Source of the DNA: Prevotella sp.
GTDB taxonomy: Bacteria; Bacteroidota; Bacteroidia; Bacteroidales; Bacteroidaceae
DNA length: 38,938 bases
NCBI GenBank assembly: GCA_017964785.1
Contig: JAGCRH010000068.1
Location: forward strand, 1 to 38,938
Direction: 5' to 3'
The notes beneath the pieces were generated by a model. That model was not told the DNA's origin, made no database searches, and was given only the letters and a program-made list of their open reading frames with translations. This document shows positions 19,212-33,965 of the stretch, one piece after another. Positions within the stretch are counted from its first letter, which is position 1. Each line of letters begins with the position of its first letter. The translations under genes were made by a program, and so were the position numbers.

Positions 19212-19982
19212 ATGAAGTTTGAGGTCATACATATCGACGAGACGGACTCCACCAACCGCTGGCTGCGTGATAACCCGCCCTTATTTGGCAATAACCCTGC
19301 CTTATTGAAGAATAAGGGCCGCTTATTGAGAAAGGGGTGCCCTGTGGTTGTGGCGGAGTATCAGACCGCAGGGAGGGGTTGCGGAACGAACCAATGGGAG
19401 AGTGAGCGCGGCAAGAACCTGACGTTCTCGATGCTGATCCATCCCTCGGATGTGCCGGCAGCGAAGCAGTTCATTCTGTCGATGGCCAATGCGCTGGCAC
19501 TGAAACGGACACTCGACGACTATGTAGATGGCATCAAGATCAAATGGCCCAACGACATCTATTGGCATGACCGGAAGATTTGCGGCACGCTGATAGAAAC
19601 CACGTTGCAGGGCAGCAGGATCCAGGACTGCATCATCGGCACGGGCATCAACATCAACCAGAGAGCATTCCTGAGCGATGCACCGAACCCAGTATCGCTT
19701 TGTCAGATTCTTGGTCACGAGGTGGACCGCGAGGAGGTTCTGGAAAAAGTGCTGAATTATTCAGACGACTACATGCTGGCTGTGGACCAGGGCTTATGGG
19801 AAGACATCAGAGCGTCATACCGCGCTCATCTCTACCGTTTAGAGGAGAGTCACGATTTTATAATCAGTGGTCAGAGGGTCTGCTGCAAATTGGTGGGTGT
19901 CACAGACGACGGACATCTGCGCTTACTGCATGATCACACGCCCACTGACTATGCTTTTAAGGAAGTACAGTTTTGTTTATAG
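19212..19982 (+). CDS. birA: Biotin--[acetyl-CoA carboxylase] ligase
   Basis: 256 residues from ATG 19212; the family N-terminus IHIDETDSTNRWL follows directly, and an upstream in-frame start (19098) would overlap terminator and promoter. The biotin protein ligase motifs are present: GRGCGTNQW (variant of GRGRxGRxW), IKWPNDIYW, KICGTLIET and GTGININ. There is no N-terminal helix-turn-helix, so this is a mono-functional (class I) ligase that biotinylates carboxyl carrier proteins without acting as a repressor. The second position of the GRGRxGR loop region is Cys instead of Arg (GRGCG). A four-unit heptanucleotide array begins within the last codons and fills the spacer to pyrH. Confidence 0.93.
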   Translation: MKFEVIHIDETDSTNRWLRDNPPLFGNNPALLKNKGRLLRKGCPVVVAEYQTAGRGCGTNQWESERGKNLTFSMLIHPSDVPAAKQFILSMANALALKRTLDDYVDGIKIKWPNDIYWHDRKICGTLIETTLQGSRIQDCIIGTGININQRAFLSDAPNPVSLCQILGHEVDREEVLEKVLNYSDDYMLAVDQGLWEDIRASYRAHLYRLEESHDFIISGQRVCCKLVGVTDDGHLRLLHDHTPTDYAFKEVQFCL

Positions 19983-20002
19983 TTTATTGTTTATAGTTTA
20001 TA
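19975..20002 (+). repeat. Heptanucleotide array at the birA/pyrH junction
   Basis: Four tandem 7-mers: GTTTATA, GTTTATT, GTTTATA, GTTTATA. The birA stop (TAG, 19980-19982) is formed across the first unit boundary, and pyrH starts 3 nt after the last unit (20006). Confidence 0.9.
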
Positions 20003-20005
20003 GAT

Positions 20006-20716
20006 ATGGCAAGATTTAAGAGAATTCTATTGAAGTTGTCAGGCGAGAGCCTGATGGGAAAGCAGGGTCACGGTATTGACCCTGAGCGTCTGGGCGACTA
20101 TGCCCGTCAGATTAAGGAAGTGGCCGAGATGGGTGTGCAGATCGGTATCGTTATTGGTGGCGGAAACATCTTCCGTGGCCTGAGTGGTTCGAAGAAAGGC
20201 TTTGACCGTGTGAAGGGCGACCAGATGGGTATGTGCGCCACAGTCATCAACTCACTGGCACTGAGCAGCGCCCTCGATGCAGAAGGTGTGAAGAACAAGG
20301 TGCTGACGGCCATCCGCATGGAACCGATCGGTGAGTTCTACAGCAAGTGGAAAGCTATCGAGGCTATGGAGAACGGATATGTATGTATCTTCTCCGCTGG
20401 TACGGGTCAGCCTTATTTCACCACCGATACAGGAAGTAGTCTGCGTGGCGTGGAGATTGAGGCCGATGTGATGCTGAAAGGAACTCGCGTGGACGGCATC
20501 TATACCGCCGATCCCGAGAAGGATCCGACAGCCACGAAGTTTGAGGATATCTCTTATCAGGAGGTGTTGGAGCGCGGCTTGAAGGTGATGGATCTCTCAG
20601 CCGTCTGCATGTGTCAGGACAACAACCTGCCCATCTATGTCTTCAACATGGACATCGTCGGTAATCTGAAAAAGGTGATGGAAGGCGAGCAGATCGGAAC
20701 GCTCGTACATCCATAG
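20006..20716 (+). CDS. pyrH: UMP kinase (uridylate kinase)
   Basis: 236 residues, the normal length for the bacterial hexameric UMP kinase of the amino-acid kinase fold. KRILLKLSGESLMGKQGHGI at the N-terminus, VIGGGNIFRG (phosphate-binding glycine loop), a AGTGQPYFTTDT segment for UMP/ATP binding, and the C-terminal DNNLPIYVFNMD are all intact. It phosphorylates UMP to UDP in pyrimidine nucleotide synthesis. The gene usually next to it in bacteria (frr) is absent here; instead it follows birA, and it ends 5 bp from the convergent DUF4834 gene with no visible terminator between. Confidence 0.97.
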   Translation: MARFKRILLKLSGESLMGKQGHGIDPERLGDYARQIKEVAEMGVQIGIVIGGGNIFRGLSGSKKGFDRVKGDQMGMCATVINSLALSSALDAEGVKNKVLTAIRMEPIGEFYSKWKAIEAMENGYVCIFSAGTGQPYFTTDTGSSLRGVEIEADVMLKGTRVDGIYTADPEKDPTATKFEDISYQEVLERGLKVMDLSAVCMCQDNNLPIYVFNMDIVGNLKKVMEGEQIGTLVHP

Positions 20717-20721
20717 AGGAT

Positions 20722-21108
20722 TTAACTGACTTCCTCGAACTCGACGTACTCGCCGTCGCTGTTGTCGAAGATCTTTTTCTTCTCTTCGCTCTCGCGGTCG
20801 TCGATGATTGTTACACCACTATCCGTAGTTGTCTTGCGGGTAGTGGTTTGCTTTTCTGTCTTCGGCTCTTGCTTCTTGCTGCCGCTGCTCTTGAAGTAGT
20901 CCTTGTCGAAAGGATTTTTCTCCCGCTGCTCCCTTTGGTTGCGGATATACTCCTGACGACTGTATTTCTTACCACCAGTATTCATAAACTGTTCCTGCAT
21001 GTCTCTCATGTTCCTGACGCCTTTGTACATGAAACGGAGCACCACCGCTACGACGACGGCGATACCAATGAGGATAAAAAGAATGATGGCAACAAATCCT
21101 TTCAGCAT
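20722..21108 (-). CDS. DUF4834 family small membrane-anchored protein
   Basis: 128 residues: one N-terminal transmembrane helix (~5-26), then a basic region with the MYKGVRNMRDMQEQFMNTGG pattern seen in the DUF4834 family of Bacteroidota, a Lys/Thr-rich low-complexity middle (~75-95) and a very acidic C-terminal tail (SDGEYVEFEEVS). It lies 15 nt downstream of pssA as the last gene of the psd-pssA operon, a neighbourhood I recall as common in Bacteroidota. Function is unknown; a cytoplasmic-tail membrane protein connected with phospholipid synthesis is inference from linkage. Confidence 0.85.
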   Translation of the reverse strand: MLKGFVAIILFILIGIAVVVAVVLRFMYKGVRNMRDMQEQFMNTGGKKYSRQEYIRNQREQREKNPFDKDYFKSSGSKKQEPKTEKQTTTRKTTTDSGVTIIDDRESEEKKKIFDNSDGEYVEFEEVS

Positions 21109-21123
21109 AATATAGATTGTTTT

Positions 21124-21804
21124 TTAGGTTGTTTTATGAGTGGCAATAGACAGAATGACATACCATGCAATGATGGCGGCCAGGCCAGTGACTCCCAACA
21201 GGAGCAGCAGTGGTATGCAGGAGAGGATAAAGATGTATTTGATCTCATTGCCCTTCCAGCCCCAGGTCTTGAACTTCAAGGCGAACATGGGGATTTCGGC
21301 AATGAGCAACCAGCAACTGATAAAAGTGCCAACGAGAATACACCATTCCATGCCCTCAAAGCAGATGGCTTTTTCCTGCAAGCCCACGATGAGTGAACCC
21401 CAGAAGAGGGCATTGGCAGGGGTGGGGAGTCCGATGAAACCCAAGGCCTGTCGCTCGTCAAGGTTGAACTTCGCGAGGCGCAAAGCCGAGAAGGCTGCCA
21501 TCACAAAGGCGAGGAAAGGCACGATAGGAATATGGATATGGAAGGTGCAGAGATAACTGAACACAATAGCCGAGGGGGCAAAGCCGAAGGTGATGTCGTC
21601 GGCCAATGAGTCGAGTTCCTTGCCGATGGGGGAGGAGACGTGCAGCAGGCGTGCCACCATCCCGTCGAAGAAATCAAAGACCGCTCCAATCACGATGAAC
21701 AGTAGCGCCAGATAGGTCACACCCATGAATGCCCAATAGGTGGCGATGCAACCTGAGATGAGGTTGCAGCAGGTGATCGTATTTGGGATATGCTTCTTAA
21801 TCAT
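21124..21804 (-). CDS. pssA: CDP-diacylglycerol--serine O-phosphatidyltransferase
   Basis: 226 residues from ATG 21804; an upstream extension of the frame overlaps psd and is not family-like. The CDP-alcohol phosphatidyltransferase signature D-G-x2-A-R-x8-G-x3-D-x3-D is complete (DGMVARLLHVSS, then GKELDSLAD), with about seven to eight hydrophobic helices around it. The N-terminus IPNTITCCNLISGC is typical of PssA. It makes phosphatidylserine from CDP-diacylglycerol and serine, which the adjacent psd then decarboxylates to phosphatidylethanolamine. The start codon is part of a heptanucleotide array that occupies the spacer from psd. Confidence 0.95.
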   Translation of the reverse strand: MIKKHIPNTITCCNLISGCIATYWAFMGVTYLALLFIVIGAVFDFFDGMVARLLHVSSPIGKELDSLADDITFGFAPSAIVFSYLCTFHIHIPIVPFLAFVMAAFSALRLAKFNLDERQALGFIGLPTPANALFWGSLIVGLQEKAICFEGMEWCILVGTFISCWLLIAEIPMFALKFKTWGWKGNEIKYIFILSCIPLLLLLGVTGLAAIIAWYVILSIATHKTT

Positions 21805-21822
21805 TGAACATTGACCATTGAA
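21802..21822 (-). repeat. Heptanucleotide array at the psd/pssA junction
   Basis: On the plus strand CATTGAA, CATTGAC, CATTGAA (three units, then CAT). In the transcribed sense the unit is TTCAATG: the ATG of the last unit is the pssA start codon, and the psd stop lies 2 nt before the first. Confidence 0.88.
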
Positions 21823-21824
21823 CA

Positions 21825-22514
21825 TTATGCCAATTTTGCGATGACCGTCTGGTCGCCCGTTGTGGGCTGGTTCATTGTGACACAGGCCTTGGCCGTCAGC
21901 GGCAGGAATACATCCACACGCGAACCCAGTTTGATAAAGCCCATGTGCTCGTCGATATAGCACTCCTCTTCGGGTTTGGCGTATGTGACGATACGACGGG
22001 CCACGGCGCCGGCAATCTGGCGCACCAAGATATCCTCACCCTCGGGCGTAGTGATCATGATGTCAGAATGCTCGTTCTCCTCGCTGGCCTTGGGCAGCCA
22101 CGCTTTGTGGTAGTTGCCGTTGAAATGCTTCACAAACTTCACCTTGCCGTCAACAGGAAACCAGTTGGCGTGTACGTTCCACGGACTCATGAAGATAGAG
22201 ATCATCAGGCGCTTGTCGTGGAAGTAGTCATTCTCCTCGGCTTCCTCCACCACGACGATCTTGCCGTCGGCAGGTGCCACAACCAATTTCTCTGTGTCGC
22301 CGTTAAAGTAGCGGATGGGACAGCGGTAGAAGTTCAGTGCCACAAACCAGACGGTTCCGAAGATGATAATAAAAATCCAAAAAGGAATATGTGATTCGAA
22401 GAGCCGCAGGAGCAGCGCACCGATAGCGATGATCAGTCCGGCACTAAGTGTCAGTTCGTTGGTACCCTCGCGGTGAATCCTGATTTTTTTCAGTTTCTTG
22501 ATTCTTTCTCCCAT
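21825..22514 (-). CDS. psd: Phosphatidylserine decarboxylase, short (PSD-A/C-like) form
   Basis: 229 residues with two adjacent hydrophobic segments near the N-terminus (~23-40, 44-62). The self-processing site is visible as [10 protein letters not shown] (Gly197-Ser198), where Ser198 would become the pyruvoyl cofactor; other PSD motifs include [12 protein letters not shown] and [16 protein letters not shown] with the conserved His. It decarboxylates phosphatidylserine to phosphatidylethanolamine at the inner membrane. It is first gene of the operon psd-pssA-DUF4834, driven by a consensus promoter that is back-to-back with that of dnaE. Confidence 0.95.
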
Positions 22515-22548
22515 TAGTTATCTTTCCGATTGTTTTCGTTTCCGGTTG

Positions 22549-22580
22549 CAAAGGTACATCTTTTTTGCGTAAATTACAAA
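22549..22580 (-). promoter_or_regulatory. Promoter of the psd-pssA-DUF4834 operon
   Basis: Minus-strand TTTG (22580-22577), 20 nt, TACCTTTG (22556-22549). The predicted start near 22544 gives a ~30-nt leader. Confidence 0.85.
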
Positions 22581-22596
22581 CTTTTCACACTTTTCT

Positions 22597-22628
22597 TTTG
22601 ATATTCTCAGGATTTAGCAGTAACTTTG
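22597..22628 (+). promoter_or_regulatory. Promoter of dnaE
   Basis: TTTG (22597-22600), 20 nt, TAACTTTG (22621-22628); the predicted start near 22633 leaves a leader of ~27 nt before the ATG at 22660. The -33 elements of this and the psd promoter are only 16 nt apart. Confidence 0.85.
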
Positions 22629-22659
22629 ACCCACGAAAACGGAAAAAGCAAGCATTTCG

Positions 22660-25600
22660 ATGGAAGATTTCATACATCTGCACGTACATACATACTACTC
22701 AATCCTCGATGGACAGTCGAGTATCAAACGGCTTGTCAACAAGGCGATAGACGATGGCATGAAGGGCATGGCCATCACTGATCACGGTGACATGTTCGGC
22801 ATCAAAGAATTTCACGATATCTGCAACGAGGTAAACAAAGGCCGCAAGAAAGAAGGACTCGAACCCTTCAAACCCATCTTCGGCTGTGAGATGTATGTGG
22901 CCCGTCGAGGTGATAAGAGCCTGAAAGAGCATAAGGAGGACTTGGGTGGCTACCACCTGATCGTGCTGGCCAAGAATGCCAACGGCTACAAGAACCTGAT
23001 CAAACTGGTCAGTAACTCGTGGGTCGATGGCTTCTATAACCGTCCGCGTACGGATCGGATGGAATTGGAGAAATACCACGAGGACCTGATTGTCTGTTCG
23101 GCCTGTATTGCTGGTGAGGTGCCTGCCAAGATATTGAAAGGGGATATTGCCGGAGCCCGTGAGGCCATTGAGTGGCACCAGCGGCTCTGGGGCGACGACT
23201 ATTATTTGGAGTTACAGCGCCACGAGGTGACGGATCCCAATATCCGTGCCAACCGTGAGACCTATCCCATGCAGCAGCAGGCCAACAAGGTGCTGATAGA
23301 ACTGGCCAAGGAATACGGTATCAAACTCATCTGCACCAATGATGCCCATTTTGTGGACAAGGAGAATGCCGAGGCCCACGACCATCTGCTCTGTCTCTCG
23401 ACAGGTAAGGACCTCGACGATCCGACGCGTATGCTCTATTCCAAGCAGGAGTGGTTCAAGACGCGTCAGGAGATGAACGATATTTTCAGTGATGTGCCAG
23501 AGGCACTGGCCAATACCTTAGATATATTAAATAAGGTGGAGGTCTATAGCCTCGACAACGACCCCATCATGCCGTTCTTCCCCATCCCTGAGGACTTCGG
23601 TACGGAAGAAGAGTGGCGAAAGAAATTCACGGAACAGCAACTCTATGACGAGTTTACCTCCGATGAGAACGGCCAAAACCAACTCTTGCCAGAGGAAGGC
23701 CAGAAGAAAATTAAGAAACTTGGCGGCTATGACAAACTCTACCGCATCAAGTTTGAGGCCGACTATCTGGCGAAACTGGCGTACGAGGGTGCCAAGCGTA
23801 TCTATGGAGATCCTATTCCTGACGAGGTGCTGGAACGTGTCAAGTTCGAACTGCACATCATGAAGACGATGGGTTTCCCAGGCTACTTCCTGATTGTGCA
23901 GGACTTTATCAATTCTGCCCGTGACGAACTGGGTGTGATGGTAGGCCCTGGCCGTGGTTCTGCGGCAGGCAGTGTGGTGGCCTATTGTTTAGGCATCACA
24001 AAGATCGACCCGTTGAAGTACGACCTGCTGTTTGAGCGTTTCCTCAACCCTGACCGTATCTCGCTCCCTGATATTGATACTGACTTCGACGACGACGGAC
24101 GAGGTCGCGTGTTGAAGTGGGTGGAGGATAAGTACGGCCATGAGAACTGTGCCCATATCATCACCTACGCCACGATGGCCACAAAGAACTCCATCAAGGA
24201 TGTGGCTCGCGTAGAAAAGGTACCCATCCCTATATCCAATGCCTTGTGTAAGGCCATCCCAGATCGTCTGCCAGACGGTCCTGACGGTAAGGCTACGAAG
24301 ATGAACCTGCCCAATGCCATCAAGTATGTACAGGAGTTACGCGATGCGGAGGCCTCTAATGACAAGGCGCTGGCCAATACCATCAAATACGCGAAGATGT
24401 TGGAGGGAACGGTACGTGGAACGGGTATCCATGCCTGTGGCTTCATCATCTGTCGCGACCCCATCAGTGACCACGTGCCAGTATCGACGGCAGATGATCC
24501 TGACTTCAAGGGTGTAAAGACCAACTGTACGCAGTACGACGGACATGTGATTGAGTCGACAGGACTCATCAAGATGGACTTCCTGGGGTTGAAGACTCTC
24601 TCGGAGTTGAAGGAGGCCTGTGAGAATATCAAGCGAACCAGAGGCATTGAGGTGGACCTCGATCATATCCCCATCGACGACCCCAAGACCTACGAACTCT
24701 ACCAGCAGGGCCGCACCATCGGCACCTTCCAGTTTGAGTCGGACGGTATGCGTAAATACCTGCGTGAACTGAAACCCACCGTGTTTGAGGATCTGATCGC
24801 CATGAACGCCCTCTACCGTCCAGGGCCGATGGGCTATATCCCTCAGTTTATCCGTCGTAAGCACGGCGATGAGCCAATCACCTACGATATCCCCATCATG
24901 GAGAAATACCTGAAAGATACCTATGGTATCACGGTGTATCAGGAGCAGGTGATGTTGCTCTCGCGTCTCTTGGCCGATTTCACCAGAGGCGAGAGTGATG
25001 CACTTCGTAAGGCGATGGGTAAGAAGAAGAAAGACATCGTTGATGCGATGAAGCCGAAGTTCATTGAGGGGGGTAAGAAGAATGGCCATGACCCCAAGAT
25101 ATTGGAGAAGATATGGGCCGACTGGGAGGCATTTGCCTCTTACGCCTTCAACAAGTCGCATGCCGCCTGTTATTCCTGGGTGGCTTACCAGACGGCCTAC
25201 CTCAAAGCCAACTATCCTGCTGAGTTCATGGCGGCAATCATGAGTCGTCGGCGTGACCAGATTACGGAAATCACCAAACTGATGGACGAGTGCAAGCAGA
25301 TGGGTATCGCCACCTTAGGTCCCGATGTGAACGAGTCGTATGAGAAGTTTGGTGTGAACCACCATGGTGAGATCCGTTTCGGCCTGGGTGCCATCAAGGG
25401 CATGGGCGACTCGGCAGCACTGGCCATCATCGAGGAACGCGAGAAGAACGGACTCTACAAGGATATCTATGACTTTGCCCAGCGTGTCAGTTTCTCATCC
25501 ATCAACCGCAAGGGCTATGAGAGTCTGGCCCTGAGTGGGGGATTCGATAGTTTTGGTATCCGTCGTGAGGACTACTTTGCCGTCAACAACAAGGGTGAGA

Positions 25601-26391
25601 TGTTCTTAGATACCTTGGTGCGCTACGGTCAGGCCTACCAGCAGGAGAAGGCCGAGATGCAGAACTCCCTCTTTGGAGCCTTTGGCGAAGGTGTTGAGAT
25701 AGCCCGTCCGCCTGTGCCGAAGAGCGAGGCACGTTGGAGCGACATTGAACGACTGAACAAGGAGCGCGACCTCGTGGGTATCTACCTCTCCGCTCATCCC
25801 CTTGATGAGTATAAGATTGTGCTCGACAACCTGTGCAATACCAAGTGTGCCGAATTGGCAGACCGAGGTATCGCCTTAAAGGACAGGGAAGACATTACCT
25901 TGGGTGGCGTCGTCACCAGCGTCCAGTCGAAGTTTGGTAAGAACAATAAGCCTTGGGGGATAGTCACCCTTGAAGACTTCGACGGCCCTGGTGAGTTGGT
26001 GCTCTTCGGCGACGACTGGATCAATCTGAATGGCAAGTTCATCGAAGGGGCGGCCATCTATGTCACAGGCAAGATGCAGGCACGTTTCTTTAATAGCAAT
26101 CAGAAGGAATTGAAAGTGACAAATGTCGAGTTGCTGCAAACCGTCAAGGAGAAGTCGATAGACAGGATCACCATCTCGCTGGCCTCAGATATGCTTGATG
26201 AACAGATCGTGGCGGAACTCAGCGAGATTATCAGTGAGAATCCAGGGAAGACCAAACTCTTCTTCCTCCTCCGCGACTCACAGAGTAGGAACCACGTGCT
26301 GCTGCGTGCCTCGAACGGAGGTGTAGACGTGCGTCATACGCTGATTGACTATATCGAGAGCCATGAGATGCTCGACTATAAGATTAATTGA
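22660..26391 (+). CDS. dnaE: DNA polymerase III alpha subunit (replicative polymerase)
   Basis: 1243 residues, within the usual range for DnaE. The PHP domain starts at once (FIHLHVHTYYSILDGQSS) and keeps the TDHGDMFG metal-site motif. The polymerase core has GPGRGSAAGSVVAYCLG and catalytic aspartates Asp471 and Asp473 (LPDIDTDF) and Asp640 (KMDFLGLKTL), corresponding to E. coli D401, D403 and D555. Further on come the fingers (YQEQVMLLSRLLADF), a helix-hairpin-helix region, and an OB-fold near residues 1075-1160 (ITLGGVVTSVQSKFGKNNKP). It has its own promoter and ends in a heptanucleotide array, followed by a sigma-54-type site before trxA. Confidence 0.97.
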   Translation: MEDFIHLHVHTYYSILDGQSSIKRLVNKAIDDGMKGMAITDHGDMFGIKEFHDICNEVNKGRKKEGLEPFKPIFGCEMYVARRGDKSLKEHKEDLGGYHLIVLAKNANGYKNLIKLVSNSWVDGFYNRPRTDRMELEKYHEDLIVCSACIAGEVPAKILKGDIAGAREAIEWHQRLWGDDYYLELQRHEVTDPNIRANRETYPMQQQANKVLIELAKEYGIKLICTNDAHFVDKENAEAHDHLLCLSTGKDLDDPTRMLYSKQEWFKTRQEMNDIFSDVPEALANTLDILNKVEVYSLDNDPIMPFFPIPEDFGTEEEWRKKFTEQQLYDEFTSDENGQNQLLPEEGQKKIKKLGGYDKLYRIKFEADYLAKLAYEGAKRIYGDPIPDEVLERVKFELHIMKTMGFPGYFLIVQDFINSARDELGVMVGPGRGSAAGSVVAYCLGITKIDPLKYDLLFERFLNPDRISLPDIDTDFDDDGRGRVLKWVEDKYGHENCAHIITYATMATKNSIKDVARVEKVPIPISNALCKAIPDRLPDGPDGKATKMNLPNAIKYVQELRDAEASNDKALANTIKYAKMLEGTVRGTGIHACGFIICRDPISDHVPVSTADDPDFKGVKTNCTQYDGHVIESTGLIKMDFLGLKTLSELKEACENIKRTRGIEVDLDHIPIDDPKTYELYQQGRTIGTFQFESDGMRKYLRELKPTVFEDLIAMNALYRPGPMGYIPQFIRRKHGDEPITYDIPIMEKYLKDTYGITVYQEQVMLLSRLLADFTRGESDALRKAMGKKKKDIVDAMKPKFIEGGKKNGHDPKILEKIWADWEAFASYAFNKSHAACYSWVAYQTAYLKANYPAEFMAAIMSRRRDQITEITKLMDECKQMGIATLGPDVNESYEKFGVNHHGEIRFGLGAIKGMGDSAALAIIEEREKNGLYKDIYDFAQRVSFSSINRKGYESLALSGGFDSFGIRREDYFAVNNKGEMFLDTLVRYGQAYQQEKAEMQNSLFGAFGEGVEIARPPVPKSEARWSDIERLNKERDLVGIYLSAHPLDEYKIVLDNLCNTKCAELADRGIALKDREDITLGGVVTSVQSKFGKNNKPWGIVTLEDFDGPGELVLFGDDWINLNGKFIEGAAIYVTGKMQARFFNSNQKELKVTNVELLQTVKEKSIDRITISLASDMLDEQIVAELSEIISENPGKTKLFFLLRDSQSRNHVLLRASNGGVDVRHTLIDYIESHEMLDYKIN

Positions 26392-26407
26392 ACATTGAAC
26401 ATTGAAA
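26387..26407 (+). repeat. Heptanucleotide array at the 3' end of dnaE
   Basis: ATTGAAC, ATTGAAC, ATTGAAA; the dnaE stop codon TGA (26389-26391) is inside the first unit. It is essentially the same unit as at the psd/pssA junction, in opposite orientation to transcription. Confidence 0.88.
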
Positions 26408-26409
26408 TG

Positions 26410-26426
26410 TTGGCACGACTTTTGCA
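26410..26426 (+). promoter_or_regulatory. Sigma-54 (RpoN) -24/-12 promoter upstream of trxA
   Basis: TTGGCACG (26410-26417), N4, TTGCA (26422-26426) matches the RpoN consensus YTGGCACG-N4-TTGCW at every fixed position, with the GG and GC doublets separated by exactly 10 nt. A transcription start would fall near 26437, ~30 nt before the trxA ATG. No TAnnTTTG promoter was found in the 75-nt dnaE-trxA gap. Confidence 0.75.
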
Positions 26427-26466
26427 GAAGTATTAATATGTAATTATCATAAAATCAGAAAAGATT

Positions 26467-26781
26467 ATGGAAGTAACAATCACAAGTGAGAATTTTGAGA
26501 GCCTGAAGAAAGGCGATCTGCCTTTGGTAGTGGATTTCTGGGCAACATGGTGTGGCCCCTGTCGTATGATTGGCCCAATCATTGCGAAGTTGGCAGAGAA
26601 ATACGACGGTAAGATTGCCGTTGGTAAGTGTGACGTAGAGGACAACGACGACCTCGCTGCAGAGTTTGGTATCCGTAACATCCCCACCATCCTGTTCTTC
26701 AAGAACGGTGAGGTGGTTGATAAGATGGTGGGTGCCCAAAGCGAGGCTAAGTTGGACGAGAAATTCCAGGCACTGCTTTGA
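26467..26781 (+). CDS. trxA: Thioredoxin
   Basis: 104 residues, a single thioredoxin fold with the active site WCGPC (Cys29, Cys32) in VVDFWATWCGPCRMIGP and the cis-Pro segment RNIPTILFFKNG. No signal peptide, so it is cytoplasmic and reduces protein disulfides. It starts 40 nt after a perfect sigma-54-type site and is followed 3 nt later by a small acidic gene with which it should be co-transcribed. Confidence 0.97.
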   Translation: MEVTITSENFESLKKGDLPLVVDFWATWCGPCRMIGPIIAKLAEKYDGKIAVGKCDVEDNDDLAAEFGIRNIPTILFFKNGEVVDKMVGAQSEAKLDEKFQALL

Positions 26782-26784
26782 TCT

Positions 26785-27105
26785 ATGGCCAGCATTGAAG
26801 AAGAACTCAGGCTCGACGAAGAAGAGAATCAGCGGGAACTGGCGTTCATCCGCGAGCAGATTCCCTTTGATGCCAAGAAGCATTACAGCGACCAGAGCAT
26901 CCTGTATATGATGGACTTGATAGTAGACTATTACTATTCGAGTGGCATCTTAGAGAGTACTGAGGAGGAGGTTGACATCGACTTGGAGGCTGTGGCCGAC
27001 TATGTCTGTCGCAAGGCTAAGGAGGAAGGTGTCACCAACCTCGATCCGGAATATGTGCTCTTCGTCGTACAGGCAGACCTGGACTTTCAGGAACAAAACC
27101 TTTGA
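26785..27105 (+). CDS. Small acidic protein of unknown function, downstream of trxA
   Basis: 106 residues, strongly acidic, with no signal peptide or membrane segment. It opens with a charged helix (IEEELRLDEEENQRELAFIR) likely to form a coiled coil, then SDQSILYMMDLIVDYYYSSG and a C-terminal YVLFVVQADLDFQEQNL. I have seen proteins of this look annotated as conserved hypothetical in Bacteroidota but know no function. Three nt after the trxA stop, it is surely in the same transcript. It ends 4 bp from the convergent tsaE gene. Confidence 0.78.
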   Translation: MASIEEELRLDEEENQRELAFIREQIPFDAKKHYSDQSILYMMDLIVDYYYSSGILESTEEEVDIDLEAVADYVCRKAKEEGVTNLDPEYVLFVVQADLDFQEQNL

Positions 27106-27109
27106 ACGT

Positions 27110-27538
27110 TTAGAAGAGGATGGTGCGAGTGCCGTCCTCTTTTTCTTTGATGTGCACCTTGACGGCATCCTCAGGGAGTACTTCCTCTATCAGTTCAGGC
27201 CACTCGATGAAGCAGAGTGCGCCAGAATAGAAGTAGTCTTCGAACCCCATATCGTAGACTTCTTCCAGTTTCTTGATGCGATAGAAGTCGAAATGGTAGA
27301 TTTTAGAGGTGAGAGGTGAGAGGTGAGAGGTAAGAGAATACTCATTCACGATGGCGAAGGTGGGTGAGGTGATGACATCCTCCACACCCAGTTCTTCACA
27401 GATGGCCTTGATGAAAGTGGTCTTGCCAGCCCCCATCTCTCCGTAAAATGCAAACACACGGTGCTCGCCGATATGCTCGATAAACTCGCGAGCCGCCTCG
27501 CCGATATGCTCTATATCCTTAATCTGAATACTAATCAT
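27110..27538 (-). CDS. tsaE: tRNA threonylcarbamoyladenosine biosynthesis ATPase TsaE
   Basis: 142 residues from ATG 27538 (a TTG three codons upstream is less likely). The Walker A motif FYGEMGAGKTTFIKAI (~31-46), ITSPTFAIVNEY, YHFDFYRI and ALCFIEWPE are the hallmarks of TsaE, the ATPase partner of TsaB/TsaD in making t6A37 of ANN-decoding tRNAs. Between NEY and YHFDFYR lies SLTSHLSPLTSKI, a loop written by a four-unit heptanucleotide array in the DNA; in E. coli TsaE this loop is about 7 residues, so a few extra residues are present, yet the frame and motifs are intact. It is last gene of the aroA-porW-porX-tsaE run. Confidence 0.93.
   Translation of the reverse strand: MISIQIKDIEHIGEAAREFIEHIGEHRVFAFYGEMGAGKTTFIKAICEELGVEDVITSPTFAIVNEYSLTSHLSPLTSKIYHFDFYRIKKLEEVYDMGFEDYFYSGALCFIEWPELIEEVLPEDAVKVHIKEKEDGTRTILF
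27305..27332 (-). repeat. Heptanucleotide array inside tsaE
   Basis: On the plus strand AGAGGTG three times and AGAGGTA once, four 7-mers in tandem inside the tsaE coding sequence. In the coding sense (CACCTCT) the unit has no stop triplet in any frame and encodes the loop LTSHLSPLTS. Gain or loss of one unit would shift the frame. Confidence 0.92.
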
Positions 27539-27542
27539 AATC

Positions 27543-27577
27543 TTCAATGTTCAATCTTCAATGTTCAATCTTCATCT
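27543..27577 (-). repeat. Heptanucleotide array at the porX/tsaE junction
   Basis: On the plus strand TTCAATG, TTCAATC, TTCAATG, TTCAATC, then a diverged TTCATCT. The porX stop (27572-27574) is in the diverged unit; in the coding sense the clean units (CATTGAA/GATTGAA) carry TGA. Confidence 0.9.
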
Positions 27578-29137
27578 CTTCTTCCCTGTCAGTGTGATGA
27601 GTGGGATAATCATCTCCTCCATCGAGATGCCGCCGTGCTGGAAGGTGTCGCGGTAGTAGGAGACGTAATAATTGTAGTTGTTGGGATAGGCGAAGAACGA
27701 GTCGCCTGTGGCAAACACATAACTCGTAGAGAGGTTGGGCGCAGGTAACAGCGCCTTACGAGGCTCCTTGATGGTAAACAGGCTCTTGTCGTCGTAGGCC
27801 AGGTTCTTGCCGAGTTTATAGCGCAGGTTGGTGTTCGTGTTCCTGTCGCCTACGATCTTCACAGGCTGTGTACTGCGGATGCTGCCGTGATCGGTGGTGA
27901 CGATGACTTTATAGTCTTTCTGCGCGATATACCTGAAAAAGTCGGCAATCACGGAGTGGCGGAACCAGGAGAGGGTGATGCTGCGGTAGGCACTCTCGTT
28001 GTTGGCCAGTTCGCGTACCATCTTCGACTCCGTACGGGCATGACTCAGCATATCGATGAAGTTGAACACGACCACATTTAGGTCGTTTTTCTCCAAACGG
28101 CTCAGTTGCTGCATCAGTCTGTCGGCATCCAACGAGTTGTTCACCTTATGATAGGAAAAGGTGTTCTTTCTGCGATAGCGGTCTAACTGCGTCTTGATGA
28201 GCGGTTCTTCGTTCAGGTTCTTGCCTTCCTCCTCGTCCTCGTCCACCCAGAGGTCAGGAAACATCTCCGCAATCTTATCAGGCATCAGACCAGAGAAGAT
28301 GGCGTTACGGGCATATTGCGTGGCCGTTGGCAGGATGCTGCAATAGAGTTGTTCGTCGATCTCGAACTGGTCGCTGAGTTCGCGTGAGAGCATCCGCCAC
28401 TGGTCGTAGCGGAAATTGTCGAGCACCACGAGGATCACTTTCTTCTGTTCATTGAGGAGCGGAAAAATGGTGGTCTTGAAAATCTCTGGCGAGAGGATCG
28501 GCCTCTTATTATCCCTAGGATTTCCCAAACTCGCCACCCAGTCGAGGTAGTTCTTCCTGATAAACTTCGCAAAGCCGAGGTTGGCTTCCTGCTTCTGCAT
28601 CTGGAGCATATCAGTCATACTGCTCTCCGTGCTACTCAGTTCCAGTTCCCAGTGCACGAGGCGCTTGTATACTTCCACCCAGTCCTGCCAAGTCTGACAG
28701 TCCATGATTTGCATCGCAATCTGCTGGAAGTTCTGCTGATACTGGCTCTGCGTCACCTCCGTCTCAATCTCTTTGCGGTGGATGTTCTTTTTCAGGGTCA
28801 GGAGTATCTGGTTGGGGTTGACGGGCTTGATCAGGTAGTCGGCAATCTTCTGGCCGATGGCCTGTTCCATGATATTCTCTTCTTCGCTCTTGGTGACCAT
28901 CACCACAGGGGTGGTGGGGTGTATCTCCTTGATGCGCTGCAAGGTTTCCAAACCGCTGATACCTGGCATCTGTTCGTCCAACAGCACCAGGTCATAGTTG
29001 TGCTCTCGACAGAGGTCGATGGCGTCAGTGCCATTCGAGACTGTCGTCACCTCATAGCCTTTCTTTTCCAAGAACAAGATCTGCGCCCTTAACTGCTCAA
29101 TCTCGTCATCCACCCATAATAATATGCCGTTCGTCAT
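27572..29137 (-). CDS. porX: PorX-type response regulator with PglZ domain
   Basis: 521 residues. Residues 1-~120 are a CheY-like receiver with the acidic pair Asp10-Asp11, phosphorylatable Asp54 (LVLLDEQMPG) and the conserved T/K (VMVTKSEE). The remainder is an alkaline-phosphatase-fold PglZ domain with metal-site segments FIDMLSHAR and TTDHGSIRS. This receiver-PglZ fusion of ~520 residues defines PorX, which with the sensor PorY and sigma factor SigP regulates the type IX secretion system in Porphyromonas; related proteins also occur in species without the system. The gene lies 36 nt after porW, supporting a secretion role here. No porY or sigP is seen in the window. Confidence 0.93.
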   Translation of the reverse strand: MTNGILLWVDDEIEQLRAQILFLEKKGYEVTTVSNGTDAIDLCREHNYDLVLLDEQMPGISGLETLQRIKEIHPTTPVVMVTKSEEENIMEQAIGQKIADYLIKPVNPNQILLTLKKNIHRKEIETEVTQSQYQQNFQQIAMQIMDCQTWQDWVEVYKRLVHWELELSSTESSMTDMLQMQKQEANLGFAKFIRKNYLDWVASLGNPRDNKRPILSPEIFKTTIFPLLNEQKKVILVVLDNFRYDQWRMLSRELSDQFEIDEQLYCSILPTATQYARNAIFSGLMPDKIAEMFPDLWVDEDEEEGKNLNEEPLIKTQLDRYRRKNTFSYHKVNNSLDADRLMQQLSRLEKNDLNVVVFNFIDMLSHARTESKMVRELANNESAYRSITLSWFRHSVIADFFRYIAQKDYKVIVTTDHGSIRSTQPVKIVGDRNTNTNLRYKLGKNLAYDDKSLFTIKEPRKALLPAPNLSTSYVFATGDSFFAYPNNYNYYVSYYRDTFQHGGISMEEMIIPLITLTGKKR

Positions 29138-29140
29138 AAC

Positions 29141-29175
29141 TTTTCACTTTTCACTTCTCACTTTTCACTTCTCTT
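29141..29175 (-). repeat. Heptanucleotide array at the porW/porX junction
   Basis: On the plus strand TTTTCAC, TTTTCAC, TTCTCAC, TTTTCAC, TTCTCTT. It fills nearly the whole spacer between the porW stop (29174-29176) and the porX start (29137). In the transcribed sense the unit GTGAAAA includes TGA. Confidence 0.92.
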
Positions 29176-32100
29176 ACCAGAAGTCATCGCCGAAGTCGAA
29201 GTCTTCCACTTGTTTCTTTTCTGTCTTCTTGGCAGGCGCTCCAGGCAGGATGCCGTCGTCGTCGCTCTCCTCGCCGTCCTCTTCGCCTTCCGTCGTATCC
29301 TCTAATTCACTGCCCTCGTCCTCTGGGTCGATGATCTCCACGTTGTCAGGCCGTATCAGCAGTTTCTCTTCACTGATCTTCATCGGCACGAAGGTCTCTT
29401 CATAGAAACGTTCGTACTCTTCGTAAGAGAACCGGCTCCCCAACAGGGCGAGGTTCTGACTACTGATGATGAGGCTCAGACAGGGTCGCAGCCGTTCTGC
29501 CATCGCCTTGTCGGCATAGAGTTGACGGGCATATTGCAGGGCCTCGTCGTAACTGAGGAAGCCGCTGAACACCATCCTGTGATACTCGCCAGGCGCCACA
29601 TAGCCTTCCTCGTCCTCCTCCACGTATGGTGGTTCTGCCGCCTCTATCTGTATCTCGAAGTTACGCACCAGGAAATTGGTGAAGTTGTAGCGCGCCATCT
29701 CGTAGAGCAGTTGGTTCTCGTTGACGGAGTCGGGTTGATAGGTCAGGATGAAGAGGAAGTCCTGTTCACGGGAGGCATTCAACGTGTCTGTCACGGTGGA
29801 GTCGGCCGTCAGGGTGATATCCCTTCGTGACCAGACGTCGCCGATGTCAAACTTACCACCATGCAACCGTCGTCCGTCCTGTACGCCCTTGATGATCATA
29901 CCAGCCAACTCGCTCACCTCACTCTCCGGATACTTCTCCACCACCACTTTCAGTTGTTCGATACAGCCGTCGCCATCGCCGTCGTTCAGTCGGCTCAGAC
30001 CGTCGATGAAGATGAACTTCGCACGGTTCTCACCCAGTGGAAAGCGTTCTTCCGATATCTTCGCATTGGCACGTATCATCTGGTGATTGTCGTCCTTGAA
30101 GGCCTGGTAGGTGGCGGCATAGAGCGAGTCCTCGATATGCTCGCCAAACTGGGCATTCTCGAAGTAGTAGGGATCGCTCAGCAGGATGGTCCATTCACTC
30201 TCTGGGTGGTCCGTCTGCAAATGCGCCAGACAACTGTCCGCCAGATCCGCTCGTCCTTGTCGTGAGTAGAGCAGGAACATGTGATACCATGCCTCGTCTA
30301 AATGCTCAAAGTCCGGATAGTCGCCTGTCAGTCGCAGGAATTGCTTTTCGCTGAGGCGCAGGTTTTCAAGTTTGTCCTTGAAGATGATGCCAGAGTGCAA
30401 CAGTCCGTCCTTGATGATGTCGTGGCAGGCGGCCTTCATCTCGTCGGTGGTAGGTATCTGTGCCAGATAGTACTCGCGGTTGTGTGGGTCGTTGGCGAGG
30501 GTATCTTCTGGGATGGTGTCCACTGGAAGGGCTGCGATGGAGTCAGGCAGGACGCCGAGGCTGTCTGCCAGAGCGGCGAGGCTATCGGTGGGGAGGGATG
30601 GGTTAGATGGGTCGGTGGGAGCAGACTCCTCTGGATTGAGGTTCACCACCGTCTTGTTCACACGCTGCCAGTCGTCAGCATTCTCGCGCTTACCCCATTG
30701 CCGCTGGAAGGTCTGTTTACCCTGGTTCACTGCCATCGGATTGTAGAAGTACCACTGTCCGTTGCCCTGTTGTGGAGCGGTGGGGGCTGTCGGCGCGTTG
30801 GTGCGCTGCATATTGTCGCCCTTGGCGGCGTTCTGCTGCATGATCTGTTCGGCTTCGAGTTCCTGCTGCCTGCGCAATTCCTCCTTCTCTTTCTTTTTCA
30901 GTTCGTCGATGATGCGGTCGATCACCTTCAACTGCTCTTCCTCTGGCATCATCGAGAGTTCCAGCAGCGAGTCCTGTAGGTGGATGGCATCCGTATAAGG
31001 CACCAGTTCGTCGAGCACCTTCGAGCGGTTCGACAGTTCCTCGTAGTCGTCGCGATCCTTATCCAAGAGACCGATGGCCTCGCCGTAGCAGCGCTGGGCA
31101 TCGTTGTATTTCTCCATCTCCCAGTACAGATTACCCAAGGTCAGCAACAGCACACCTTTCTCTATGCCGCTGCGTGTGGCCTTCTCGTTGCCTTTCTCGT
31201 AGGCGGCGATGGCCTTTGCCGTATCCTTCTGGGCCATGTAGATATTACCCATGGCATAATACACCTGATCCAGATAGTCCTTGTTGTTGTCGTTGCGCGC
31301 CATGCGTTTCAGTCTGCTGATCATCCCCTTGGCATTCTCTGCGGCGACGACTTCCGTCTGGGCGATGCGGGCATTGAACTCCATCTCGTAGGGGGGATGA
31401 CAGCCCACCACCTTCTTGAAGGCGCGCTCTGCCTCGGCACGGTTGCCGAGTTGGCGCTGTATCTGTCCCATCAGGAACCACTCGCGGGCCCTCAGTTTGC
31501 TGCGCTTCTCGTGCTTGATGACTTTCCGCAGATAGGGCACGGCCTTTTCCAACTCCCCATTACGCAGGTAGTAGTCGGCATAGGTGTAGTCCCAGTCCTT
31601 CACGGTACGGAAGTCCACCGAGTCGCGGTTCATATTGCGGATCACGTCCTCTGCATCGTAGAGCCAGTCCAGTTCCACATAGCACTTGGCGAGCCACGCC
31701 CTTGCCAGTCCGTTCTGCATGGGCTGTGTCTGGTAGAGTCGGCTCATATAGGAGAAGGTTGCGGCGGCCTCGTCGAAGGCACCCTTTTGGAACTGCGCCT
31801 TGCCCAACAGCATCCACGCCTTCCAGATAAACGGGTTGTACTCCCTGCGCTCCAGCCACTCTCGGTCCTTGGCGGTCTTAGTCTTGCCGCTCTTCCATTC
31901 AGGCTTGGCCTTGATACTGTGCATCTTGATGGCCTTTTCCGCCTTCTCGATGGCACGTTCGTACTGGCCCTTGCCGATCTCTCGGCTGTTCTTGTTGCCG
32001 ACGGGGTAGAGTGGGAGGGTCTCAGTATAGTTGTCCTGATTGCTTTTCTCCTTTTCGAGGTTGCCGTCGATGAAGGCCTGCTGCCCGTTGTAGTAGATGT

Positions 32101-32236
32101 TGTATTTGGCGTTGAACGAGTGCCACCAGCGCGACTGGGCTGTGTTGTGCTTGGTGGAACATGCGGCGAATAGGATGATCGTGGTGACAAATAAGAGGAA
32201 AGAGGAAAGAGGAAAGAGACTTCTTCCTTCTACCAT
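29174..32236 (-). CDS. porW: PorW/SprE-like TPR lipoprotein of the type IX secretion system
   Basis: 1020 residues. Lipoprotein signal ends in LFAAC (Cys26), followed directly by STKHNTAQSRWWHSFNAKYN then IYYNGQQAFIDG, which matches the N-terminus of SprE (Flavobacterium) and PorW (Porphyromonas). TPR-like helices run from ~140 to 400 (e.g. EWFLMGQIQRQLGNRAEAER), then a charged coiled-coil stretch with EEEQLKVIDRIIDELKKKEK, a long Pro/Asp linker (~540-600), more helical repeats, and an acidic tail ending DFDFGDDFW. PorW links the core secretion complex to the rest of the machine at the periplasmic side. The signal sequence is written by a heptanucleotide array. Assigned by N-terminal pattern, domain order and linkage to porX. 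Confidence 0.87.
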   Translation of the reverse strand: MVEGRSLFPLSSFLLFVTTIILFAACSTKHNTAQSRWWHSFNAKYNIYYNGQQAFIDGNLEKEKSNQDNYTETLPLYPVGNKNSREIGKGQYERAIEKAEKAIKMHSIKAKPEWKSGKTKTAKDREWLERREYNPFIWKAWMLLGKAQFQKGAFDEAAATFSYMSRLYQTQPMQNGLARAWLAKCYVELDWLYDAEDVIRNMNRDSVDFRTVKDWDYTYADYYLRNGELEKAVPYLRKVIKHEKRSKLRAREWFLMGQIQRQLGNRAEAERAFKKVVGCHPPYEMEFNARIAQTEVVAAENAKGMISRLKRMARNDNNKDYLDQVYYAMGNIYMAQKDTAKAIAAYEKGNEKATRSGIEKGVLLLTLGNLYWEMEKYNDAQRCYGEAIGLLDKDRDDYEELSNRSKVLDELVPYTDAIHLQDSLLELSMMPEEEQLKVIDRIIDELKKKEKEELRRQQELEAEQIMQQNAAKGDNMQRTNAPTAPTAPQQGNGQWYFYNPMAVNQGKQTFQRQWGKRENADDWQRVNKTVVNLNPEESAPTDPSNPSLPTDSLAALADSLGVLPDSIAALPVDTIPEDTLANDPHNREYYLAQIPTTDEMKAACHDIIKDGLLHSGIIFKDKLENLRLSEKQFLRLTGDYPDFEHLDEAWYHMFLLYSRQGRADLADSCLAHLQTDHPESEWTILLSDPYYFENAQFGEHIEDSLYAATYQAFKDDNHQMIRANAKISEERFPLGENRAKFIFIDGLSRLNDGDGDGCIEQLKVVVEKYPESEVSELAGMIIKGVQDGRRLHGGKFDIGDVWSRRDITLTADSTVTDTLNASREQDFLFILTYQPDSVNENQLLYEMARYNFTNFLVRNFEIQIEAAEPPYVEEDEEGYVAPGEYHRMVFSGFLSYDEALQYARQLYADKAMAERLRPCLSLIISSQNLALLGSRFSYEEYERFYEETFVPMKISEEKLLIRPDNVEIIDPEDEGSELEDTTEGEEDGEESDDDGILPGAPAKKTEKKQVEDFDFGDDFW

Positions 32237-32423
32237 CGTCCATCTTACTTCTTCCTTCTTCCATCAGACAGTGCAACTTGCATGTCTCGTCATGAGCGGC
32301 TGTGCACGTGGAACAATCATGTCCCTGTTCGATGGTGTCCTTCCCCTTGTCGAACCGGTTGGCCACTGCGGCAACGATGCCCAGCACCACGATCATCCCT
32401 ATGCAAACCAGCGCAAAACTCAT
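32022..32423 (-). CDS. Small Cys-rich membrane protein with frame running into porW
   Basis: The frame starts at ATG 32423 (inside ATGA with the aroA stop) and is 133 codons long. Residues 1-~20 are a transmembrane helix (FALVCIGMIVVLGIVAAVAN), followed by GHDCSTCTAAHDETCKLHC, four clustered cysteines and histidines suggestive of metal or Fe-S binding. From residue ~55 on the sequence is low-complexity, and then, for ~70 residues, an out-of-frame reading of porW (overlap 32022-32236). The natural protein probably ended near MEEGRSK, and the present long tail may come from loss of the stop in the repeat-rich junction. I do not recognise the family. Confidence 0.6.
   Translation of the reverse strand: MSFALVCIGMIVVLGIVAAVANRFDKGKDTIEQGHDCSTCTAAHDETCKLHCLMEEGRSKMDDGRRKKSLSSFLFPLICHHDHPIRRMFHQAQHSPVALVALVQRQIQHLLQRAAGLHRRQPRKGEKQSGQLY
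32195..32267 (-). repeat. Heptanucleotide arrays across the start of porW
   Basis: Two adjoining parts with period 7. At 32195-32218 the plus strand has GAGGAAA three times plus GAG, encoding the LFPLSSFLLF of the PorW signal peptide. At 32219-32267 seven degenerate heptamers follow (ACTTCTT, CCTTCTA, CCATCGT, CCATCTT, ACTTCTT, CCTTCTT, CCATCAG), containing two 19-nt near-copies exactly 28 nt (4 units) apart. The porW start codon lies in the third heptamer. Confidence 0.85.
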
Positions 32424-33883: not shown

Positions 33884-33956
33884 CGGGGCTTAGCGCAGTT
33901 GGTAGCGCACACGTCTGGGGGGCGCGAGGTCGCTGGTTCGAGTCCAGTAGCCCCGA
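33884..33956 (+). tRNA. tRNA-Pro (anticodon GGG)
   Basis: A 73-nt cloverleaf. Acceptor stem CGGGGCT (33884-33890) pairs with AGCCCCG (33949-33955), discriminator A33956. D stem GCGC/GCGC, anticodon loop CTGGGGG (33915-33921) with GGG at 33917-33919, T arm GCTGG-TTCGAGT-CCAGT. CCA is not encoded (ACATT follows). The C1-G72 pair and the anticodon identify proline. The anticodon stem contains one A-C mismatch (33911 with 33925). Confidence 0.95.
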
Positions 33957-33965
33957 CATTTTAAG

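Follow-up and report, generated by a model that had tools for sequence, protein, structure and literature searches.

Period-7 tandem arrays with changing unit sequences at gene junctions of Prevotella and its relatives

We analysed a 38,938-nucleotide (nt) stretch of Prevotella sp. DNA (assembly GCA_017964785.1, contig JAGCRH010000068.1; hereafter the window) for short tandem arrays that lie between and within its genes. NCBIfam matches identify BirA, PyrH, PssA, Psd, DnaE, TrxA, TsaE, PorX and PorW in the window, and Tandem Repeats Finder reports eight arrays of 7-nt period between 19.97 and 32.27 kb. The genome from which the window comes, designated G000 (G### denotes genomes and L### loci throughout), comprises 2.88 Mb in 147 contigs and is 81% complete. 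The closest named relatives of its PorX belong to Prevotella or Prevotellaceae, and many derive from rumen metagenome assemblies. No second genome of its species was found; the nearest is G013, with 83% identity across a 2.7-kb query.

At the birA/pyrH junction (19975–20003, plus strand), 4.1 copies of GTTTATA include the birA TAG stop codon, and the pyrH ATG is 2 nt away. The psd/pssA junction (21802–21826, minus strand) carries 3.6 copies of an ATTGAAC-class unit (GTTCAAT on the coding strand), the last of which contains the pssA ATG, and 2.9 copies of ATTGAAC at the end of dnaE (26387–26406, plus strand) contain the dnaE TGA stop. Two arrays occupy the gap between one gene's stop and the next gene's start: alternating ATTGAAC/ATTGAAG units (5.1 copies; 27539–27574, minus strand) between porX and tsaE, with the porX TGA stop in phase, and 4.6 copies of an ACTTTTC-class unit (GAAAAGT on the coding strand; 29139–29173, minus strand) between porW and porX. 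The latter is reported as period 7 at 29139–29170 and as period 14 at 29139–29173, and 32 of its letters recur at G000:C8:2106–2137 and twice in G031. Within tsaE, 4.6 copies of AGAGGTG (CTCTCAC on the coding strand; 27305–27336, minus strand) correspond to the extra residues SLTSHLSPLTSK in a loop. Finally, 3.7 copies of AAGAGGA (32193–32218, minus strand) encode, on the coding strand, LFPLSSFLL in what appears to be the lipoprotein signal peptide of PorW. A degenerate heptad array of CTTCTTC type with 77% matches (32220–32262, minus strand) spans the porW start codon and sequence upstream of it.

An earlier reading of the same letters, the original prediction, had named seven such sites. All of them exist, with coordinates correct within a few bases, and the gene names that it gave agree with the NCBIfam matches. 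It counted six differing units; the units do differ, but CATTGAA, TTCAATG and the dnaE/trxA unit are a single unit, ATTGAAC, in another phase or on the other strand, which leaves five classes and the degenerate array at 32220. What it described as one array at the start of porW is present but consists of two things, the signal-peptide array and the degenerate array over the start codon. The window contains four exact runs of at least 11 matches at period 7 and another four at period 14, and 100 third-order Markov simulations of it gave none at either period (mean 0, maximum 0).

The arrays are dispersed far beyond the window. Our main sample of G000 covers 489 kb chosen regardless of arrays; loci L111–L120, which had been selected for carrying ATTGAAC, were kept separate as a biased set. 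The main sample has 54 arrays of period 7 and 19 of period 8, while periods 5, 6, 9, 10 and 11 yield 0, 4, 11, 4 and 5. In 240 spacers of G000 (61.5 kb), the counts at periods 5–12 are 0, 0, 34, 9, 5, 3, 4 and 0, as opposed to a mean of 0.2 for period 7 and 0.2 for period 8 in shuffled spacers, with at most one in any of 20 dinucleotide shuffles. An array of period 7 or 8 is found in 37 of these 240 spacers, and 28 of 39 period-7 arrays fall within the 15% of sequence called intergenic; genes were called with a home-made hexamer caller, checked by eye against the open reading frames of the window only. Arrays per 10-kb bin are distributed nearly at random (40 bins, mean 1.13, variance 1.26), a figure for the whole sample and not for the 19–33 kb cluster by itself. 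Confinement of the arrays to 19–33 kb, as originally proposed, thus holds within the window and fails for the genome. In one 50-kb stretch of E. coli K-12 there was no array at periods 4–12. The excess over shuffled spacers, the absence in E. coli and the other units that relatives use at the same junctions uphold the central claim of the original prediction, namely that period is kept and sequence is not; the checks that it proposed on spacers and relatives thus came out in its favour.

As a rough gauge of array abundance in other genomes, we counted a core pattern, RKTRA at spacing 7, with the reversed pattern as control. Among 35 congeners searched, G006, G007 and G009 have 378, 309 and 267 matches, and G002, G011, G012, G016, G017, G024, G026 and G029 have none; in G000 the pattern and its reversed control have 129 and 112. 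The gauge undercounts: the entire G003 genome yields a single match, yet 140 kb of it contain nine period-7 arrays. A low count does not by itself mark a genome as array-poor; among the genomes without matches, direct inspection covered 40 kb of G024, with 0 arrays. In G051, from another family of the order, the reversed pattern reaches 524 and 607 matches at spacing 8 and 299 and 287 at spacing 7. Because these counts are very high, a different unit vocabulary seems to be amplified there.

The arrays of G000 also have a preferred size. Lengths of its period-7 arrays peak at 31–32 nt, with 38 of 54 measuring 29–34 nt (about 4.5 copies), 12 shorter and 4 longer. Ten of the 19 period-8 arrays measure 32–37 nt, and G028 has a similar peak (17 of 38 period-7 arrays at 29–32 nt). 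The G000 lengths are unlike a simple decay, which would crowd arrays near the detection limit of 18–19 nt.

We compared the window sites with their orthologs. At porX/tsaE, four of nine aligned species have arrays and each uses its own unit: GTTCAAT in the window, ATTACTA/ATTACTC in G022, CTAATTC in G007 (about 11 copies) and ACTTTTC/ACTCTTC in G031. The remaining five have no array; a tenth row, in which a G031 contig had been mapped wrongly, was excluded. At porW/porX, six of seven rows look array-like by eye, with the types ACTTTTC, ACTTATC, ACTATTC, GTAAACT and ATTTATC; the detector calls arrays in the window, G081, G018 and G007, in G031 only at a laxer threshold, and not in G013. The psd/pssA site has an ATTAAAC array in G007 and none detected in G013 or G031. 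Five of six aligned relatives have no array at the end of dnaE, where G007 shows, by eye, a heptad-like stretch of two to three units. Other heptad arrays occur in the porW start region of G013 and G007, and the array-bearing loop of tsaE is shorter in most of 40 aligned relatives. In a wider set of relatives, many species are without an array at these junctions.

The period is less rigid than originally proposed: 7 predominates, but the claim that it never differs does not hold, as period 8 is common. At the junctions studied here, period 8 was detected in L026, L035, L045, L068 and L072 and seen by eye only in L025 and L061, L045 having both periods. At L098:10034, an array of period 8 in G000 (33 nt) has counterparts of period 7 in G013 and G031 (28 and 31 nt as detected). 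At L098:12649, AAGTGAA in G000 (32 nt) corresponds to TAGTGAA/CAGTGAA in G031 (31 nt) and to a degenerate AAGTGAT-like stretch, recognised by eye, in G013. When 106 G000 arrays were mapped to about 220 kb of sister sequence, period-7 sites were occupied in 4 of 10 cases in G013 and 5 of 14 in G031, and period-8 sites in 0 of 2; few sites could be mapped, and some were counted twice through overlapping loci. Reverse mapping, from the sisters to G000, gave 7 of 10 occupied, the G000 regions there having been picked for carrying arrays. Overall, array position is moderately kept, period is kept, as is size in G000, and unit sequence is not.

The vocabulary of units is small within a genome and different between genomes. 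The 28 intergenic arrays of G000 use 17 distinct units, compared with a mean of 27.4 and a minimum of 24 for random seeds (1000 draws), and its 13 in-gene arrays use nine (random minimum 11). There are 14 distinct units in 49 intergenic arrays of G009, 26 of which have one and the same unit, 11 in 23 for G028, and 30 in 42 for a set of 80 loci from many species, again below the random minimum (37). Distinct period-7 units are enriched in TTG/CAA (2.0-fold), GTT/AAC (1.9-fold) and TGA/TCA (1.8-fold). These counts bear on a rival account, purely local replication slippage, in which the DNA polymerase sets the preference for 7 nt, nothing is copied between sites, and shared units reflect convergent slippage-prone sequences. 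According to a proposal of Mrazek and colleagues, cited in passages of PMC4679880 and PMC4692102, the 7-nt length reflects how much DNA the polymerase holds. Such slippage agrees with a period spectrum that is highest at 7 and next at 8, and with a single site carrying either period. Nevertheless, random local seeds would give each genome a larger vocabulary than is seen, and an identical imperfect 30-nt array occurs in an rnfC-like and a GH3 gene, though the space of possible variants is small. We regard slippage of this purely local kind as rather unlikely. Identical arrays of 30–32 nt were also considered as proof of copying and, given the same small variant space, demoted to suggestive.

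At junctions, arrays often span the entire stop-to-start gap, and many adjoin the start codon; in 44 of 100 pairs of an array and a gene end within 30 nt, the array overlaps the upstream gene's own stop codon. The junction arrays of the window are probably mostly neutral filler. Other arrays lie upstream of TAnnTTTG, which we take to be the Bacteroidetes -7 element: among the 117 intergenic TAnnTTTGCA boxes of G000, 12 are preceded within 46 nt by a heptad array, and 15 of 21 array–box pairs are 6–10 nt apart (a few arrays pair with two boxes). This promoter association amounts to 13 of 38 in G000, versus 7.1% of random spacer sites, and to 3 of 11 in the biased set. Enrichment was not seen in G028 (2 of 43), G009 (2 of 54), G003 (1 of 9) or the 80 loci (6 of 76), and promoter function as a general role was rejected on this ground.

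The arrays upstream of -7 boxes, mostly 6–10 nt away, are one argument for seeing the arrays as selected regulatory elements, each binding a protein or ribosome component in RNA or DNA or providing stops in three frames after genes. Their adjacency to start codons is another, and stop content points the same way. Close to gene ends, 59 arrays have the stop-bearing strand as sense and 10 as antisense, and a stop trinucleotide is present on a strand of 137 of the 142 intergenic period-7 arrays, exceeding the maximum of 127 in 500 permutations. The units, however, are too diverse to be recognised by a single protein, the reversed core pattern almost equals the real one in G000, and G028, G009 and the 80-locus set show no promoter association. 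Moreover, the stop content of distinct period-7 units merely equals the permuted maximum (55 vs 55), period-8 units have no excess, and arrays are often missing at orthologous junctions. We find selection for regulation very unlikely. Three-frame stops as the purpose of the arrays, an attractive idea from the window, were rejected separately, given the counts of the core and its reverse, the lack of a period-8 excess, and in-gene arrays built from the same unit kinds with the stops on the opposite strand; 38 of 43 in-gene arrays are without three-frame stops on the coding strand.

One type of array belongs to a dispersed promoter element of 57 nt, GCGGYAGCAAAT-(TTTTCAC)4-TT-TTTTTTG-TAtCTTTG, which has at least 41 matches in G031 (a lower bound, as 40 of 194 candidates were scored) and copies in G000. 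An upstream GGYARCAAA motif was recognised by eye in 11 of 15 displayed G031 copies. The element sits upstream of unrelated genes in both genomes (loci L230–L258), and it could be a mobile promoter or mark a regulon. REP sequences are thought to be inserted by RAYTs, and an analogous copy-and-paste micro-element, an array of about 31 nt inserted by an enzyme with or without conserved flanks, would suit the promoter element, the occurrence of the peptide FNVQCSM inside unrelated proteins, and the preferred array size. On the other hand, inspection by eye revealed neither conserved ends nor target duplications at non-promoter arrays, and the obvious enzyme families are missing from several array-rich genomes. 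In a comparison of 60 relatives made by eye and without a statistic, Y1_Tnp has no match in G008 and G019, both rich in the core pattern. RVT_1 has no match in G007, G008, G018, G019, G022 and G031. These genomes are 81–94% complete. A reverse transcriptase or Y1 transposase was accordingly rejected as the maker, and we hold a micro-element of this kind to be distinctly unlikely. The original view that no single mobile element is responsible stands for the arrays as a set, the type within the 57-nt element being the exception.

Other arrays lie inside genes. In the unbiased G000 sample, 12 of 23 fall in the first 45 residues, and ten of these 12 read by eye as signal-peptide cores; eight of the 12 needed extension of the open reading frame upstream to an ATG, which favours N-terminal hits, and with reading frames as called the count is 4 of 15. 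In PorW, LFPLSSFLLF precedes a lipobox-like stretch, and the PorW family model begins at residue 20, beyond the array. This part of PorW is encoded by other arrays in further species (L026, L045 and L066, identified by eye). Two apparent signal peptides (LLFTLHFSLFTSLSAQ and VSLLHLFTFSPLMAQ) have AQ after the core, and the sites L098:10034 and L098:12649 are likewise read as apparent signal peptides derived from arrays. Elsewhere, arrays coincide with protein loops. The array within TsaE matches extra loop residues relative to its relatives, and all four proteins tried have extra loop residues when compared with solved homologues (RnfC 7, TrpF 7, GDP-L-fucose synthase 19 and M3 peptidase 15); seven residues correspond to 21 nt, exactly three heptads. 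The arrays in promoters and signal peptides have probably become functional. We also observed that, in other species, a mid-protein stretch of PorX carries heptad arrays with differing units (L018:5364–5463, L019:3127 and L022:10605).

The explanation that we favour, and to which we give about an even chance, is that these genome-wide short arrays of period 7, less often 8, which in G000 are typically about 31–35 nt long, come from a DNA-level process that fixes the length of the unit and roughly the copy number, and leaves the sequence free. A seed of about 1.5 units would first be lengthened by about three units, through slippage in DNA synthesis or copying from another array. Repair efficiency falls strongly above loops of 1–3 in the passages of PMC4060949 used here, and loops of 7–8 nt are probably too large for mismatch repair. 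Repeated slippage could then homogenise the units, so that orthologous arrays would change unit while keeping period and approximate size, and some arrays might in addition spread with their flanks, as the promoter element may have done. Selection would purge gene-breaking arrays, and the survivors would be those in stop–start spacers, in front of -7 boxes, or within the hydrophobic cores of signal peptides and the loops of proteins. Such filtering would keep the stop-bearing strand out of frame and limit in-gene additions to multiples of three bases, and T-rich strands would yield hydrophobic peptides suited to signal sequences. Slippage with homogenisation would account for the change of unit in place and for the switch between periods 7 and 8, and copying from existing arrays for the small vocabulary and for units common to unrelated genes.

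Several observations weigh against this explanation. Pure slippage does not easily explain a peaked length with few short arrays, or a small unit vocabulary; the length distribution is broader in G009 and the 80-locus set, with long arrays, and the in-gene arrays of the 80 loci (11 distinct units in 12) show no deficit relative to random. No agent was found when RVT_1 and Y1_Tnp families were looked for in relatives. Many orthologous sites have no array, and three species do not separate homogenisation from independent births at one site. Furthermore, the arrays are polar: of 214 intergenic arrays, 156 have a purine-rich strand that leads away from the closest gene boundary, compared with 4657 of 9190 array-free windows. 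Polarity holds for 38 of 45 arrays that lie within 30 nt of a 3′ end without touching the gene, and for 19 of 24 arrays 31–100 nt from a 5′ end; it is weak far from 3′ ends (15 of 26) and opposite in arrays overlapping a 5′ end (1 of 6). Among facing array pairs, 15 are convergent and 3 divergent. Neither polarity nor convergent pairing is predicted by plain slippage, and the Xanthomonas repeats, in the cited passages of PMC4692102, show both tendencies.

A hairpin function for facing pairs was rejected after five of them had been folded, z-scores of -3.9, -2.0 and -10.6 beating shuffles and -0.6 and +1.4 not doing so. The facing pair at L088:14565–14642 (RNA fold z -3.9) lies in a gene with Fer4_20 and Pyr_redox_2 matches and corresponds to an extra stretch of protein. 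A bolder alternative, which we think unlikely, is a dedicated DNA-synthesis activity in some Bacteroidales that writes blocks some 32 nt long in steps of 7 or 8 nt and measures length, not sequence. The blocks would be reused as spacers, promoter spacers at a fixed -7 distance, signal-peptide cores and loops, their sequence being renewed in place with period and size kept.

Three further features were noted. The sequence TTGGCACGACTTTTGCA between dnaE and trxA (26410–26426) has similar counterparts at the same junction in many relatives and resembles a sigma-54 -24/-12 element. A tRNA-Pro(GGG) gene is located at 33884–33957, just beyond the array region. Finally, a second class of intergenic arrays has a period of 22, many with palindromic units (for example, AATATAGCCTATTTT plus a 7-nt spacer). 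There are 26 in 400 kb of G028 (examples in L123–L142 include L125:4589–4668 and L138:4465–4532) and 39 in the 80-locus set, every one called intergenic.

The process seems to fix length rather than sequence. One genome with many units, and relatives that differ in kind and apparently in abundance, make period, copy number and sequence separable for study. If signal peptides and promoters are indeed recruited from arrays, they would offer a visible route from repeats to functional parts. The STRR repeats of cyanobacteria are short tandem heptanucleotides between genes with few units. The arrays described here are like them as tandem heptanucleotides between genes and unlike them in their many units and in belonging to another phylum. 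As in heptanucleotide simple-sequence repeats of the STRR/LSSR kind, period 7 is over-represented and mostly intergenic. The repeats of phase-variable contingency loci have units of 1–5 nt and lie mostly in surface genes. Our arrays share with them tandem repetition near gene starts and differ in their 7-nt units and many housekeeping genes (compare passages of PMC4692102).

The literature cited here, which includes surveys of repeat representation (2014, PMC4060949) and of satellites (PMC6749651), leaves open, in the portions used, why longer bacterial repeats favour a period of seven. Among the titles listed in a search of open-licence papers, none describes such arrays in Prevotella, which is not proof of absence; nevertheless, the original statement that no equivalent had been described has to be withdrawn in view of two systems. 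The first is the GGGAATC or GGGGA(C/T)T heptameric repeats of Xanthomonas and Nostoc (Rehm 2015, PMC4692102), for which, in the cited passages, a four-copy preference in Xanthomonas was related to G-quadruplexes and each genome has one G-rich unit type. A preference for about four units is likewise found in G000. By contrast, the arrays described here have many units, mostly without G tracts (GGG is absent from the consensus unit of every window array), occur at period 8 too, and occupy promoter, signal-peptide and loop niches. Because arrays without G tracts show the four-copy preference, G-quadruplexes are not its general reason. The second is the TAACTGA direct repeats of Beggiatoaceae, cyanobacteria and five Bacteroidetes (MacGregor 2015, PMC4679880), hypothesised in the passages cited to be the binding site of a post-transcriptional regulator; none of the window arrays has a TAACTGA unit. 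Both kinds are 7-nt intergenic repeats, often located just upstream of start codons, some over stop codons, with some junctions empty in close relatives. As far as those passages describe it, the TAACTGA unit is fixed, and related heptamers are rarely repeated in the main genome, whereas in the arrays reported here the unit is free.

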